A DNA stretch of 64,000 nucleotides from Bacteroidota bacterium (GTDB lineage Bacteria; Bacteroidota; Bacteroidia; Chitinophagales; Chitinophagaceae), in assembly GCA_947460175.1 (NCBI GenBank), contig CANHGW010000003.1, positions 1 through 64,000 on the forward strand, given 5' to 3'. The notes under the pieces are model-generated. The model was given only the letters and a program-made list of their open reading frames with translations. It was not told the origin of the DNA and did not search any database. Every line of letters begins with the position of its first letter. Positions within the stretch are counted from its first letter, which is position 1. This document shows positions 15,468 through 20,537 of this stretch, one piece after another. Both the position numbers and the translations under genes were made by a program.

Positions 15468-16298
15468 TTAATCCCATTTCTTGGTTTCACCTAATGTTGA
15501 AATTTGACAATTAAGAACTTCATTTTCTTTATAATCAACACCAACAACATGTATTAGAGCTACTAATTTCAATTGATTCTTTATGCTGTATTTTCCTGTA
15601 ATCGAACGTGTATATTCTTTTACTACTAAGTTACCCGATTTCATTGAAATAGAGTCGCCTGTATAAGAGGTTATTACATCACGTACTACGTGGTGATGGA
15701 TATAACCTTGTGGTGCGTTGAGTTGGTTTTGTGCCACAATATTATCTTCAATTAAATACAATGTTAGTCTTGTATTTTCCAATATTGAATCGTTGTATCC
15801 TACATATACTTTTACGTTTAATTGATCATTCTCTAATTTACTTACTAATGCTAAACCACAGGTTGCAGATTGAGAAATTAATGCATTAAGATTTTGACGC
15901 CAATTGAAAATACTTATAACAGTAGAATCTATTTGAGTACCTAAAGTAGCTGGCACACGATTAATTGATGCTCTCGGAAATCCATTCACTCCACCTAAAT
16001 GAGCACTGATTGAATTAAAAAAAGGTGTAATAGCAAGCCAATCTCCTTGATGAATAGATGCTGCCAAAATTTTAAACGTATCCAAAGCAAGCATTGCCTT
16101 CAACGAATCGTCTCCCACTGGGCAGTTAGGATTCCATTCGCCTTTGAAATTTTCAATGAGCACCTTTCTTGTAAATGATGTAGGCACTTCTCCTACTGGA
16201 ATTGGTGCAGGTGTTGTATTTCCTGTATTGGTATTTTTATCTTTTTTGCAAGAAAAAAAGAAAAGAAACAAACAGCCAAACAGTATATATTTTTTCAT
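15468..16298 (-). CDS. Omp28-like lipoprotein, copy 3, degenerate CxxC motif
   Basis: A 276-residue predicted lipoprotein, signal MKKYILFGCLFLFFFSC with lipobox C17. It is the third of three tandem Omp28-type paralogues. The thioredoxin-like segment aligns as VLIENFKGEWNPNCPVG, where the other copies read EFTGEWCG-x-CP. The first cysteine is Asn here, so disulphide exchange at this site is not possible. The C-terminal part (GYIHHHVVRDVITSYTGDSI, ending in KKWD) matches the family. Its stop is only 3 nt from the metal-regulator start, so it may be co-transcribed with that regulator and corA. Copy 2's terminator separates it from copy 2. It may be a binding protein rather than a redox protein. 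Confidence 0.82.
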   Translation of the reverse strand: MKKYILFGCLFLFFFSCKKDKNTNTGNTTPAPIPVGEVPTSFTRKVLIENFKGEWNPNCPVGDDSLKAMLALDTFKILAASIHQGDWLAITPFFNSISAHLGGVNGFPRASINRVPATLGTQIDSTVISIFNWRQNLNALISQSATCGLALVSKLENDQLNVKVYVGYNDSILENTRLTLYLIEDNIVAQNQLNAPQGYIHHHVVRDVITSYTGDSISMKSGNLVVKEYTRSITGKYSIKNQLKLVALIHVVGVDYKENEVLNCQISTLGETKKWD

Positions 16299-16322
16299 TA
16301 AAATATTCTAAGAATTAAAGGT

Positions 16323-16352
16323 AAAAAAAAACGCTCATTCCTGAGCGTTTTT
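16323..16352 (-). terminator. Terminator after Omp28-like copy 2
   Basis: Eleven-bp stem AAAAACGCTCA/TGAGCGTTTTT (16326-16336 with 16342-16352) with a U-rich tail on the minus strand. Confidence 0.85.
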
Positions 16353-16373
16353 CTTTATTATCATTTATTAAAA

Positions 16374-17243
16374 CTAGTCCCACTTTTTAACTTCGTTCAA
16401 TCCTGCTTGTTGAACGTTTAAAATTTCATGGTTCATTTCAGTAGCACCATTTACATTTACAAAAGCAAGTACATGTAAGTTAGCTTTGTCTTTGTAAAGA
16501 CCTGCAATATCTAAACCTTTAAAATCTTTAATCGTGTATTTTTTAGCATCTGTCAATGTTACATCATCACCAACTGTAGATGTGAAACAAGCTCTTACAA
16601 CGTGCTCATGTAAATAACCTGCAGGTGCATTACTTTGATTAATAGGAGTGATAGCATCTTCAATTAAGTACAAAGTAATTTTTGTGCTTTTATTTACTTT
16701 AGCGTTATACCCCATGAATACTTGAACATCAAGCATGTCATTTTTTTCTTTAGTAACCATTGCAAGTCCACATTCTGCAGGCTCTGCTAAGATATTATTG
16801 GCAGCCGTGCCCCAATCACCTCTAGAGAAAATATTTTCACTATTGTATGGACGACGATTTGCAGTTCCACCAGGGAAACCATAAGTGTTTGGCATTAAAG
16901 CTTGAATTTGGGTATAGAATGGATCTATCACTAACCAATCTTTATCGTGTATTGCTGCACCATATATTTTACCTCCACTACCTGATACTATACCATCAAG
17001 AATTAATCCACCATCAGGACAAAATCCACACCATTCTCCAGTAAATTCTTCAACTAGTACTTTATGCGTAAAGTCAGTTGGTACAGCACCTACTTGAGCT
17101 AACGGATCTACAACTGGAGTAGTTGTGTTGTTAGAAGAAGTATTGAATGGACTCAATCCAGTATCACCAGAAGGAGATTTTTTGCAAGATGCAAAACCAA
17201 TAACCATTGCAGCTACTAGTGTAAGTGAAAAAAGTTTTTTCAT
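16374..17243 (-). CDS. Omp28-like lipoprotein, copy 2, CGFC motif
   Basis: A 289-residue predicted lipoprotein with signal MKKLFSLTLVAAMVIGFASC (lipobox C20), nearly identical to the signal of copy 1. The thioredoxin-like entrance is VLVEEFTGEWCGFCPDGG. The remainder is the Omp28/P27 type beta-rich domain, with YLIEDAITPINQSNAPAGY, LHEHVVRACFT and a terminal EVKKWD. The family was named from a Porphyromonas outer-membrane protein. The EFTGEWC-x-x-C start suggests a periplasmic or surface disulphide activity, but no function has been shown. Copies 1 and 2 are separated by 172 nt and each has its own terminator. Confidence 0.85.
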   Translation of the reverse strand: MKKLFSLTLVAAMVIGFASCKKSPSGDTGLSPFNTSSNNTTTPVVDPLAQVGAVPTDFTHKVLVEEFTGEWCGFCPDGGLILDGIVSGSGGKIYGAAIHDKDWLVIDPFYTQIQALMPNTYGFPGGTANRRPYNSENIFSRGDWGTAANNILAEPAECGLAMVTKEKNDMLDVQVFMGYNAKVNKSTKITLYLIEDAITPINQSNAPAGYLHEHVVRACFTSTVGDDVTLTDAKKYTIKDFKGLDIAGLYKDKANLHVLAFVNVNGATEMNHEILNVQQAGLNEVKKWD

Positions 17244-17361
17244 TTTAAGTTAGTTTTAATACCCAAATATAATGTTATTTATTTAAATGTTGCAACATTA
17301 ATCTTCATAATTATCCCCAAATAAGGTCAAATACTACTTTTTTGCAAGTGAAAATTGCTAT

Positions 17362-17394
17362 AAAATGAAAAATGCACTCCGAGGAGTGCATTTT
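17362..17394 (-). terminator. Terminator after Omp28-like copy 1
   Basis: Inverted repeat AAAATGCACTCC/GGAGTGCATTTT (17369-17380 with 17383-17394) with a T-rich tail on the minus strand. Confidence 0.85.
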
Positions 17395-17415
17395 ATTAAA
17401 CAACTATAATGGTTA

Positions 17416-18285
17416 TTAATCCCATTTTTTAATTTCGTTCATTGAACATTCTTGTGCTGTAATAATTTCTACTCCCGCACTTCCTACATTTCCTTTAGTA
17501 TGTACTATTACAAGTAAATTACAATTATTGATGTTTTTATATTTTCCACCAATGTTTTTGTTTTTTAATTGCACTTTAAAATACTTCTCACTACCAACCC
17601 ACTCAATTTGATCTCCACTTAAATCTGAAGTTAAATAATCAATCAATACATGTTCATGCTTATAACCAGGTCCACCAGATGTTTGACCTTGAGCTGAAGT
17701 TGGAAGATCATTCTCTAATAAATAAACAGTATAGTATAAGTCTTTGGTCAAAGGTTTTGTTACACCGAAATAAATATCTAGGTTCACATTATCTCCAGTT
17801 GTTTTAGATACTAATGCTACACCAATATCTGTTTTAACTTGTAAACGAGTATCAACTTCACCAGCCCAACTTGAAGCACCCATTACTGCACCACGATCAA
17901 CATTACCTCCAGGATATGAAGAGTGAGAGCCTAACATTGTATTAATTTGATTGAAAAATGATGGTTCATAAGGATCAGAACCTGAATTGGCATTATGAAT
18001 TGCAACTGGATAAGCTACATCGGGATGTGCATCTACGATTGCTTTCAGATTGGCAGCACCACCTGGACAAGCACCACACCACTCCCCTGTAAATTCTTCA
18101 ATTACTACTTTTTTTGTAAATTTGGTAGGAACTGATCCAACAGGTAATGTTGGTGCAGATGGAGCAGTTACAGTAGGTGCCGTATAAAATGGGTTACTAC
18201 CTGTATCAGGAGAATTTGTTTTTTTGCAAGATGCAAAACCAATAACCATTGCAGCTACTAGAGTAAGCGAAAGAAGTTTTTTCAT
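17416..18285 (-). CDS. Omp28-like lipoprotein, copy 1, CGAC motif
   Basis: A 289-residue predicted lipoprotein. The signal MKKLLSLTLVAAMVIGFASC differs from copy 2 by one residue, and the DNA over this stretch is almost identical, pointing to recent duplication or gene conversion. The redox-like motif is VVIEEFTGEWCGACPGG. The C-terminal domain shares YLLENDLP, GYKHEHVLIDYLTSDLSGDQI and the terminal EIKKWD with the other copies, though the mature sequences have diverged. It is the upstream-most copy on the minus strand and ends at its own terminator. Role unknown; see copy 2. Confidence 0.85.
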   Translation of the reverse strand: MKKLLSLTLVAAMVIGFASCKKTNSPDTGSNPFYTAPTVTAPSAPTLPVGSVPTKFTKKVVIEEFTGEWCGACPGGAANLKAIVDAHPDVAYPVAIHNANSGSDPYEPSFFNQINTMLGSHSSYPGGNVDRGAVMGASSWAGEVDTRLQVKTDIGVALVSKTTGDNVNLDIYFGVTKPLTKDLYYTVYLLENDLPTSAQGQTSGGPGYKHEHVLIDYLTSDLSGDQIEWVGSEKYFKVQLKNKNIGGKYKNINNCNLLVIVHTKGNVGSAGVEIITAQECSMNEIKKWD

Positions 18286-18393
18286 GGAATAAATTGTTTT
18301 AGAGTTTAAAATTAAAAATAATAATTGAAAAGGTCAAAACATTAACATATGTTAATGAATAACTCTTTTACATAAATAAGACGAATGAAAAGG

Positions 18394-19284
18394 TTATTTC
18401 GTTGGGAATGACCCATTAATTAATGTATTAATTTCGGCAATCTTCATTTCCTCTTCTACCAAAGGTTCAATATTTTTGGTTTGTTCTACTTTTCTTTTTT
18501 GAAAACTAGCTAATTTCAACATTCTATTTAAGTTATCGTCTGTCAATGTAAACGCTTTCTCTATCCATACATTCACTACATCTATAAGCTCTTGTTTAGA
18601 GACTCTATTACATATATTCATAAATGGATTTGAAACATATTTTTCGAGTTCTCCACTTTTTATCAGTGTTGACATTTTTTCGATACCAAAGCCATCTTCA
18701 CACACTTCATTAATAATACCAAGATTAAAAATATCTCTAGCTGAATAGGTTTTATTGGAATTAATGATTTCTGTTGCTTTATTGAAGCCTACTTTTTTAG
18801 TTAAAAAGCTATAGGCGCCCATACCAGGAAACGTTCCAAAAATAACTTCAGGGAAACTAAACTTTGCTGATTCTTCAGCAATGATAAAGTTGCCAGACAA
18901 TGCACTTTCAAACCCTCCTCCGAATGCATTCCCTTGAACTACACAAGTTGAAAAGACATCCATGTCATAATTGCTATTATAGTTGTAGACCAAATCGATG
19001 CATTTATAAGCATAGTCTTTGAGTGAATTTTTATTCTTGCTTTTAATACAAGAAACAAAATACTCCAAATCACCCCCAAGATTCCAGACACCTTTATTCA
19101 ATGAATATGCAACGACATATTTTATATTTTCTTTCTTAATAAAATAGACAATTAACTCTTTTACATGAGTCAAATTATCTAGAAAATTCATTGAATAACA
19201 AAGTTTATCTTGCAAATCAATTCCAACCCAAAGAATTTTAAATTCATTGTCAATCTTGATTCTGAGATTATTATTTATAAACAA
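18394..19284 (-). CDS. RpfF-like DSF-family signal synthase (crotonase fold)
   Basis: A 296-residue crotonase-superfamily protein matching RpfF, the enzyme that makes cis-2-unsaturated fatty acid signals (DSF) from acyl-ACP by dehydration and thioester cleavage. It carries the RpfF-specific GVWNLGGDLEYF (65-76), the oxyanion region VVQGNAFGGGFESALSG with E126, and FPEVIFGTFPGMGAYSFLT with E146. The two glutamates are 20 residues apart, as E141 and E161 are in Xanthomonas RpfF. The C-terminal VNVWIEKAFTLTDDNLNRML helix also matches. The only usable start is a TTG with no clear ribosome site; upstream codons run into a stop. No RpfC, RpfG or Rpf2 lies nearby. The surroundings are very AT-rich and the gene stands alone. 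The activity is inferred. Confidence 0.85.
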   Translation of the reverse strand: MFINNNLRIKIDNEFKILWVGIDLQDKLCYSMNFLDNLTHVKELIVYFIKKENIKYVVAYSLNKGVWNLGGDLEYFVSCIKSKNKNSLKDYAYKCIDLVYNYNSNYDMDVFSTCVVQGNAFGGGFESALSGNFIIAEESAKFSFPEVIFGTFPGMGAYSFLTKKVGFNKATEIINSNKTYSARDIFNLGIINEVCEDGFGIEKMSTLIKSGELEKYVSNPFMNICNRVSKQELIDVVNVWIEKAFTLTDDNLNRMLKLASFQKRKVEQTKNIEPLVEEEMKIAEINTLINGSFPTK

Positions 19285-19566
19285 AATAGTGAATTTTATA
19301 GCGTTAGTTGTAGGTTAACGATGTGAAACTAACTGAAAAAATATATATAAACAAATTATATAGAATATTTTTAAATACAAAAAACAACGATTTGAAAATA
19401 TTTTTATTTACAACTTATAAACATTTGATTTTCAATTATATAAATGTTATATATATATCTTATTAATTAATATTTTATTTGTTAATGTATCATAATGTAG
19501 ACTTTAAGTAAAAAGGCTATTATCACCTAGTTGTGAATTTACCTTATAAATGTAGAAAATAAATTG
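19285..19566. other. Very AT-rich divergent intergenic region between the rpfF-like gene and nusB
   Basis: About 325 bases between the starts of two divergent genes, with long A/T runs around 19340-19500. A 7-bp inverted repeat GTTAGTT/AACTAAC (19303-19309 with 19327-19333) sits 19 nt upstream of the rpfF-like start and could be an operator or hairpin. No ORF or RNA gene is seen. The only promoter-like element is TACATTTG for nusB at the right end. Confidence 0.45.
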
Positions 19567-19610: not shown

Positions 19611-20537
19611 ATGATTAGTAGAAGAAATTTAAGAATCAAAGTATTGCATACAATTTACGAACTTGGACAGCAAAATGAACAACCAAATGCTACTATTGCA
19701 AAAAAATATTTTGATTCCAAATTAGAAGACACCACTTCTTTATTAGCTGCAGTTACACATCTTCTCTATCTTATAGCTGAATACGTATTAATACATGCCA
19801 ACCAAAAAGCATCTAAACACATCCCTACGGCTGATGATTTAAATGTCAATACAAAATTAGCAGGCAATATTATCATTCAAAAATTAAAAAAGAACGAATC
19901 ATTTTCTTTAATTATAAAAAAGAATAAACTAGCCAATTTGTTTGACGATGAGTTTATCAAAAAGATATTTATTTCTCTGTTAGATTCACCAGAATACAAA
20001 TCCTATATCGTTAATCCTGAGCGTAATTCGATAGAAGAGAAAAAGATATTGGAAACCATCATTCATCATTTTATTTTCAAAAATGAGCATACCACTTCCT
20101 TTTTAGAAGAACATTTTATTAACTGGGATAGTGATTTTGAAATGGTTGAATCTTGGATGGATAAAATATTAATTTCAGCAGGTAATTTCTCTTTTGAACG
20201 TATTCTTTCTAATGAAAAATTAGAATTTTCTCACGAACTGATTGATTGCTATTACACTAAAAAAGACACCATTTTTGCGTTTATAGAACCTAAACTTGTT
20301 AACTGGGATGCAGATCGTGTTGCCCTCCTCGATTTGATAATATTACATCTTGGAATTTGCGAACTACTTTATTTCCCTAGCATTCCTGTAAAAGTAACTA
20401 TCAATGAGTATATCGATCTAGCTAAATCATTTAGCACCTTACAAAGTGGGCAATTTGTGAATGGATTATTAGATAATGTTCGTAAAGAGCTAATGGCCGA
20501 TAATAAAATTTTCAAAAACGAACATAAAGGAAAATAA
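19611..20537 (+). CDS. nusB: Transcription antitermination factor NusB (long Bacteroidota form)
   Basis: NusB works with NusE/S10 at boxA sites to keep rRNA transcription processive. At 308 residues it is about twice the E. coli length. The N-terminal MISRRNLRIKVLHTIYE keeps the boxA-binding arginine-rich start. A lineage insert of about 140 residues follows, and the all-helical NusB core returns at about 170-300 with NWDADRVALLDLIILHLGICELLYFPSIPVKVTINEYIDLAKSFST as the most conserved part. The long form is common in this phylum. It starts a gene group with a DUF1573 lipoprotein, yajC and a DivIC-like gene. Confidence 0.92.
   Translation: MISRRNLRIKVLHTIYELGQQNEQPNATIAKKYFDSKLEDTTSLLAAVTHLLYLIAEYVLIHANQKASKHIPTADDLNVNTKLAGNIIIQKLKKNESFSLIIKKNKLANLFDDEFIKKIFISLLDSPEYKSYIVNPERNSIEEKKILETIIHHFIFKNEHTTSFLEEHFINWDSDFEMVESWMDKILISAGNFSFERILSNEKLEFSHELIDCYYTKKDTIFAFIEPKLVNWDADRVALLDLIILHLGICELLYFPSIPVKVTINEYIDLAKSFSTLQSGQFVNGLLDNVRKELMADNKIFKNEHKGK

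Follow-up and report, generated by a model that had tools for sequence, protein, structure and literature searches.

The window, a stretch of 64,000 nucleotides from a Bacteroidota genome of 3.1 Mb that is 98% complete, contains an rpfF-like gene on its minus strand at positions 18394–19284. This gene encodes a protein of 296 amino acids from a TTG start codon and was assigned from PDB matches, the family model NF006452, a phylogenetic tree and a start that is kept in relatives. In eight relatives, the start codon occupies a common position, as either ATG or TTG, and the protein begins with MFINNNLR or a near-identical sequence. A promoter-like motif, TA-N-TTTCAC, is located 26–42 nt 5' of the rpfF start in seven of nine genomes; TTCAC falls no more than 60 nt from the start codon in seven of the nine, compared with 0.10 per sequence expected from shuffles, and TTTG precedes the longer motif at promoter spacing in several genomes, that of the window among them. 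The probable rpfF promoter of the window (TTTG-N20-TAGTTTCAC, minus strand, 19285–19360) lies 38 nt 5' of the start codon and includes the conserved TTCAC. As the relatives begin at the same codon and a promoter-like motif lies upstream, the TTG start is confirmed.

The surroundings of rpfF are constant in all nine genomes that carry the gene, with a divergent nusB-type gene on one side (plus strand, 19611–20537 in the window) and a gene of the Omp28 family 67–196 bp downstream. In the window, three Omp28-family lipoprotein genes (PF11551) follow on the minus strand, at 17416–18285, 16374–17243 and 15468–16298. Two of the three genes in this tandem array (15468–18285) encode a WCGxCP motif, and Omp28 copy number at the locus differs across the genus. 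The flanks are ordinary chromosomal genes of similarly low GC and the relatives hold rpfF at the same place, so the gene is not a contaminant. Its Bacteroidota origin, as proposed in the preliminary description, is borne out by the relatives at 72–83% identity, which are Chitinophagaceae/Bacteroidota metagenome-assembled genomes, as are the closest named relatives of the window's genome, e.g. OLB11 and SSA2.

The gap between rpfF and omp28 harbours a perfect palindrome of 18 bp, CATTAACATATGTTAATG, at 18340–18357 (no strand). Sites of this type, TTAACANNTGTTAA, number three in the whole 3.1-Mb genome, this one included, and the same type is also present in three relatives (G003, G004 and G005). 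The palindrome was considered as a signal-responsive operator of rpfF and rejected, since in two genomes that lack rpfF (G006 and G009) the same site precedes an omp28 gene located elsewhere. It is therefore an omp28 site, probably the operator of that gene rather than of rpfF, and there is no evidence of co-regulation with rpfF. Across the genus, six genomes keep this rare palindrome in front of omp28 (window 18340–18357; loci L091, L097, L099 and L106). It is also found before or near a gene for a large secreted protein that has relatives in G005, G007 and G008, and close to nadD in G000 and G003. The window site resembles CRP/FNR-family sites, and the TTAACANNTGTTAA sites together have the look of a small regulon under a regulator of the CRP/FNR type.

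Membership of the RpfF-like crotonase family is solidly indicated by several comparisons. The only strong PDB matches of the window protein are to RpfF/DfsA structures (3m6m, 6dgn, 5fus and 7zq7; E-values of 5e-36 to 7e-35), with the next-best crotonase at 5e-14, some 20 orders of magnitude behind. The RpfF-like family model NF006452 (PRK08788) matches residues 4–270 with 259.9 bits, well above the curated NCBI cut-off of 177 bits, and the seven intact copies of the genus score 253–267 bits. The window protein is nevertheless the most divergent RpfF-like protein scored on this model, at 260 bits versus 340–415 bits for the others. On the RpfF equivalog model NF053515 (NCBIfam) it reaches 171 bits against a cut-off of 550, a shortfall that shows only that it differs from the Xanthomonas type: Xanthomonas campestris pv. 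campestris (Xcc) RpfF scores 574 bits, whereas the proven BDSF synthase of Burkholderia cenocepacia, at 188 bits, also falls below the cut-off and the model thus covers the Xanthomonas type only. A maximum-likelihood tree was built from 30 proteins, comprising the seven intact genus copies, four RpfFs from the PDB, eight plasmid relatives and 11 ordinary crotonases, two of which come from the window's own genome. The 19 RpfF-like rows, genus copies included, are split from the 11 crotonases at 100/100, in line with the earlier proposal that the protein is RpfF-like and not an ordinary enoyl-CoA hydratase and with the phylogeny that had been called for. Within the RpfF side, the tree of 30 proteins gave no resolved branching order, the place of the genus copies included. 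A structure predicted with AlphaFold from a four-row alignment (pLDDT 48.5) was too poor for use.

The sequence segments on which the RpfF identification was first based are all present, namely GVWNLGGDLEYF, the GGGFESALSG block with E126, FPEVIFGTFPGMGAYSFLT with E146, and W240xxxA244 towards the C-terminus. The codons of the two putative catalytic glutamates lie on the minus strand at 18907–18909 (E126, Xcc RpfF E141; placed as 19284 − 3 × (126 − 1)) and, on the same evidence, at 18847–18849 (E146, Xcc E161). Alignment places the NLGGD motif (residues 68–72, Xcc N83–D87) at 19069–19083 and the codon of W240, the C-terminal-helix counterpart of Xcc W258, at 18565–18567, both also on the minus strand. 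G86, G138, E141 and E161 of Xcc RpfF, reported for thioesterase activity and catalysis, with G86 needed for the former (PMC9040811), correspond to G71, G123, E126 and E146, all of which are retained. W258 is likewise kept as W240. Both glutamates are conserved in every RpfF-like row of the alignment. However, the suggestion that this pair, with its spacing of 20 residues, is a hallmark of RpfF did not hold, as both occupy the same columns in seven of the 11 ordinary crotonases compared, one of these from the window's genome, and the pair is also found in DspI of Pseudomonas aeruginosa (PMC5834635). The NLGGD, GFE, FPGMGAYS and C-terminal W/A/Q positions separate RpfF from the hydratases better, judging by the alignment: glycine is found at position 71 in nine of ten RpfF-like rows and tryptophan at position 240 in all ten, while neither occurs in any of the 11 enoyl-CoA hydratase (ECH) rows. 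The other RpfF-like proteins conserve 37 positions that are rarely shared by ECH; 25 of these are matched by the window protein, including N68, L69, G71, Y91, C95, F125, E137, F149, F152 and M155, together with A157, S159, G198, G200, W240, A244, L252, M255, Q262 and R264. At several positions, the Gly or Leu of other RpfFs has given way to another residue (G143S, L151T and G177N). Although the crotonase fold and the Glu pair are common to ECH, the tree split, the distance between the RpfF and ECH matches in the PDB, and the occurrence of the RpfF residue at W240, G71, F149 and M155 in 0/11 ECH rows make it barely credible that this is an ordinary β-oxidation hydratase that merely resembles RpfF.

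In common with Xcc RpfF (PDB 3m6m/3m6n; close relative 7zq7), the protein possesses the NLGGD, GGGFE, PEV and FPGMGAYSF segments and the C-terminal W/A/Q helix, as well as the equivalents of G86, G138, E141, E161 and W258. It is nonetheless divergent from the Xcc enzyme (128 bits by phmmer) and its N-terminus is shorter; its gene, moreover, is not part of an rpfC/rpfG cluster, and the genus lacks HD-GYP proteins. RpfF/DfsA of B. cenocepacia (PDB 5fus and 6dgn) shares with it the family and the residues, scores equally with the Xcc type in the PDB search and likewise lies below the cut-off of the Xanthomonas-type NCBI model (188 bits). In B. cenocepacia, rpfF is paired with rpfR, which encodes a PAS-GGDEF-EAL receptor (PMC4504480, PMC6361424), whereas EAL is found in none of the 14 genomes of the present genus and GGDEF is missing from 13 of them. 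P. aeruginosa DspI, a proposed synthase of the DSF-type cis-2-decenoic acid (PMC5834635), shares the E126/E146 pair but is described as an enzyme of the ECH/ECI type with cysteines near the active site. The best plasmid relatives are from Alpha- and Betaproteobacteria, with identities that reach 34%. The alphaproteobacterial RpfF-like proteins (plasmids of Methylobacterium, Bosea and Sphingomonas) share the family model and, along most of their length, at most ~34% identity; three of their genes adjoin genes for EAL-domain proteins, while the Bacteroidota gene does not. A divergent RpfF-like gene is also carried by an E. coli IncK2/Z plasmid (NZ_CP060058.1, 22241–23074), next to genes for an ABC transporter and outer membrane lipoprotein sorting and with no annotated receptor gene nearby. 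Elsewhere in the genus, genome G007 encodes three crotonase-type genes in tandem, one within a frame of 692 aa (C312, 15000–25500), which is possibly a degradation or polyketide-type cluster. No relative was found in the viral contigs searched, and phage records yielded a single match, a distant one to an 8-kb contig that carries no annotation. A role in anti-phage defence was considered and dropped, with no PADLOC match.

Nine of the 14 genus genomes carry rpfF, seven as an intact copy and two as a broken one. Outside the genus, no copy was found in 47 relatives, in 397 Chitinophagales or in 394 genomes sampled from the rest of the phylum; these samples overlap, the last two covering ~790 other Bacteroidota genomes. 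Among the genomes sampled, rpfF is therefore confined to one genus of Chitinophagaceae. The broken copies belong to two sister genomes, G001 and G013, which differ in their lesions: the former has an in-frame TAA at codon 172, the latter lacks one base in a run of Ts, and neither carries the lesion of the other, so that the gene was broken independently in each. Codon differences between the two are nonsynonymous and synonymous in a ratio of 11:17 in rpfF versus 9:48 in nusB, a raised nonsynonymous share as expected once function is lost. Assembly errors could account for some of this damage, but the higher nonsynonymous share speaks against them. In G012, rpfF has been cleanly deleted, with nusB and omp28 left 388 bp apart; its sister genome G007 (100/100) possesses the gene, and the absence is thus a loss. 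The intact copies, by comparison, are 72–83% identical among relatives, compared with 50–63% for nusB, 50–58% for DUF1573 and 24–64% for Omp28. This greater conservation, together with the kept upstream motif, argues that rpfF is under strong purifying selection in the seven intact genomes. The same two features render improbable the proposal that rpfF is a decaying passenger of a past transfer, now without a role, despite the independent breaks with their raised nonsynonymous share and the clean deletion. The simplest history is a single old gain at or soon after the base of the genus, probably through lateral transfer to the genus ancestor, followed by strong selection and several losses.

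RpfF enzymes are published to possess both dehydratase and thioesterase activities (PMC4958263, PMC4504480). By analogy, the substrate would be a 3-hydroxyacyl-ACP drawn from fatty-acid synthesis, which E126 and E146 would dehydrate to a cis-2-enoyl thioester; hydrolysis of the thioester at an oxyanion hole formed by G71 and G123 would then set free a cis-2-unsaturated fatty acid of the DSF type. We infer this reaction and its product from the family, membership of which and conservation of whose residues are observed directly. Since iso-branched fatty acids abound in Chitinophagaceae, the product could, as a guess, resemble the DSF of Xanthomonas in being iso-branched. Judged from the sequence, enzyme activity is likely; a signalling role is plausible but unproven.

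The preliminary description had noted that no RpfC or RpfG is encoded next to rpfF. This is correct, and the c-di-GMP components of the known pathways are also missing genome-wide. RpfC–RpfG requires an HD-GYP protein and RpfR a GGDEF-EAL protein. Domain searches detected HD-GYP (PF13487) in 0/14 genus genomes, with controls positive in four, and EAL (PF00563) also in 0/14; GGDEF (PF00990) was absent from 13 of the 14, the window's genome included, and for both of the latter domains the control genomes were positive. The sole GGDEF match in the genus, in G004 (C1, 2411082–2411525), scores 31.5 bits within a frame of 310 aa that has no EAL or HD-GYP partner. RpfG and RpfR are accordingly excluded. 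A search for the RpfC plan, a 5TM-HisKA-HATPase-REC-Hpt hybrid kinase, identified no intact example in the window's genome, which encodes two Hpt proteins only. One is a soluble TPR-HK-REC-Hpt kinase and the other a multi-TM PAS/GAF hybrid kinase split across several frames; both were ruled out as RpfC on architecture. The genome-wide search proposed earlier for RpfC, RpfG and RpfR thus returned no HD-GYP, no GGDEF/EAL and no intact RpfC architecture. In G000 (C51, 3007–7660, minus strand), the gene for a multi-TM hybrid histidine kinase of the PAS/GAF kind, bearing REC and Hpt domains, is split over several frames and adjoins genes of the etfA/etfB type. Given that EAL and HD-GYP are lacking and GGDEF nearly so, the product cannot act via RpfC–RpfG or RpfR. 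Other DSF receptors are known, including PAS_4 kinases such as RpfS, PA1396-type kinases and DSF-binding transcription factors (PMC4504480). Any product would therefore have to act either through a receptor independent of c-di-GMP, such as a transcription factor or a histidine kinase with a PAS domain, or outwardly on neighbouring species.

The alternative that survives best is that the protein is an RpfF-like enzyme which acts on acyl-ACP as a dehydratase, a thioesterase or both and supplies the cell's own lipids or envelope with an unusual fatty acid, free or 2-unsaturated, instead of making a signal, possibly with a link to the adjoining Omp28 lipoproteins. In keeping with this, neither a receptor nor c-di-GMP machinery was found, Omp28 adjoins rpfF in all nine genomes that bear it, RpfF-like genes exist in other receptor-less contexts (a Methylibium plasmid, where the neighbour is a ferritin gene, and the E. 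coli plasmid, where it is a transporter gene), and RpfF enzymes are also a source of free saturated acids (PMC4504480). Set against it are the retention of every residue tied to DSF synthesis and the loss of rpfF in several lineages, which suggests a dispensable social or accessory trait over a structural lipid. In addition, the two genes do not depend on each other as partners, given that G012 has kept omp28 after losing rpfF and that G006 and G009, which lack rpfF, have an omp28 gene with an operator of its own. On balance, a lipid or envelope enzyme appears rather unlikely, though clearly less so than the passenger and hydratase proposals.

The reading that we favour, and which is probably correct as far as the sequences can tell, is that of a functional RpfF-family crotonase, laterally gained, which makes a DSF-type cis-2-unsaturated acid and is used without c-di-GMP. 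A more specific version, that DSF-type signals are made and either read by a new receptor independent of c-di-GMP or emitted solely to influence neighbouring Proteobacteria, is put forward tentatively, as a possibility that falls short of even. Outward emission would amount to signal jamming or biofilm dispersal. If this version is true, the repeated loss of rpfF in sister species would point to cheating or a change of community.

Nearly all descriptions of DSF signalling come from Proteobacteria and Leptospirillum, and in most of them the second messenger is cyclic-di-GMP. No report of RpfF from Bacteroidetes/Bacteroidota was found in the literature searched, with most subscription papers outside its scope. 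The presence of rpfF in a genus of Chitinophagaceae that has no EAL or HD-GYP, and is nearly devoid of GGDEF, offers a naturally occurring example of the synthase separated from the machinery that usually reads its signal. Novelty at the level of the system depends on the product and its receiver. Intact, broken and deleted forms of rpfF in close relatives make a direct comparison possible and, if the product is confirmed, the genus would be a clean place in which to seek a new receptor or one-way signalling between species.
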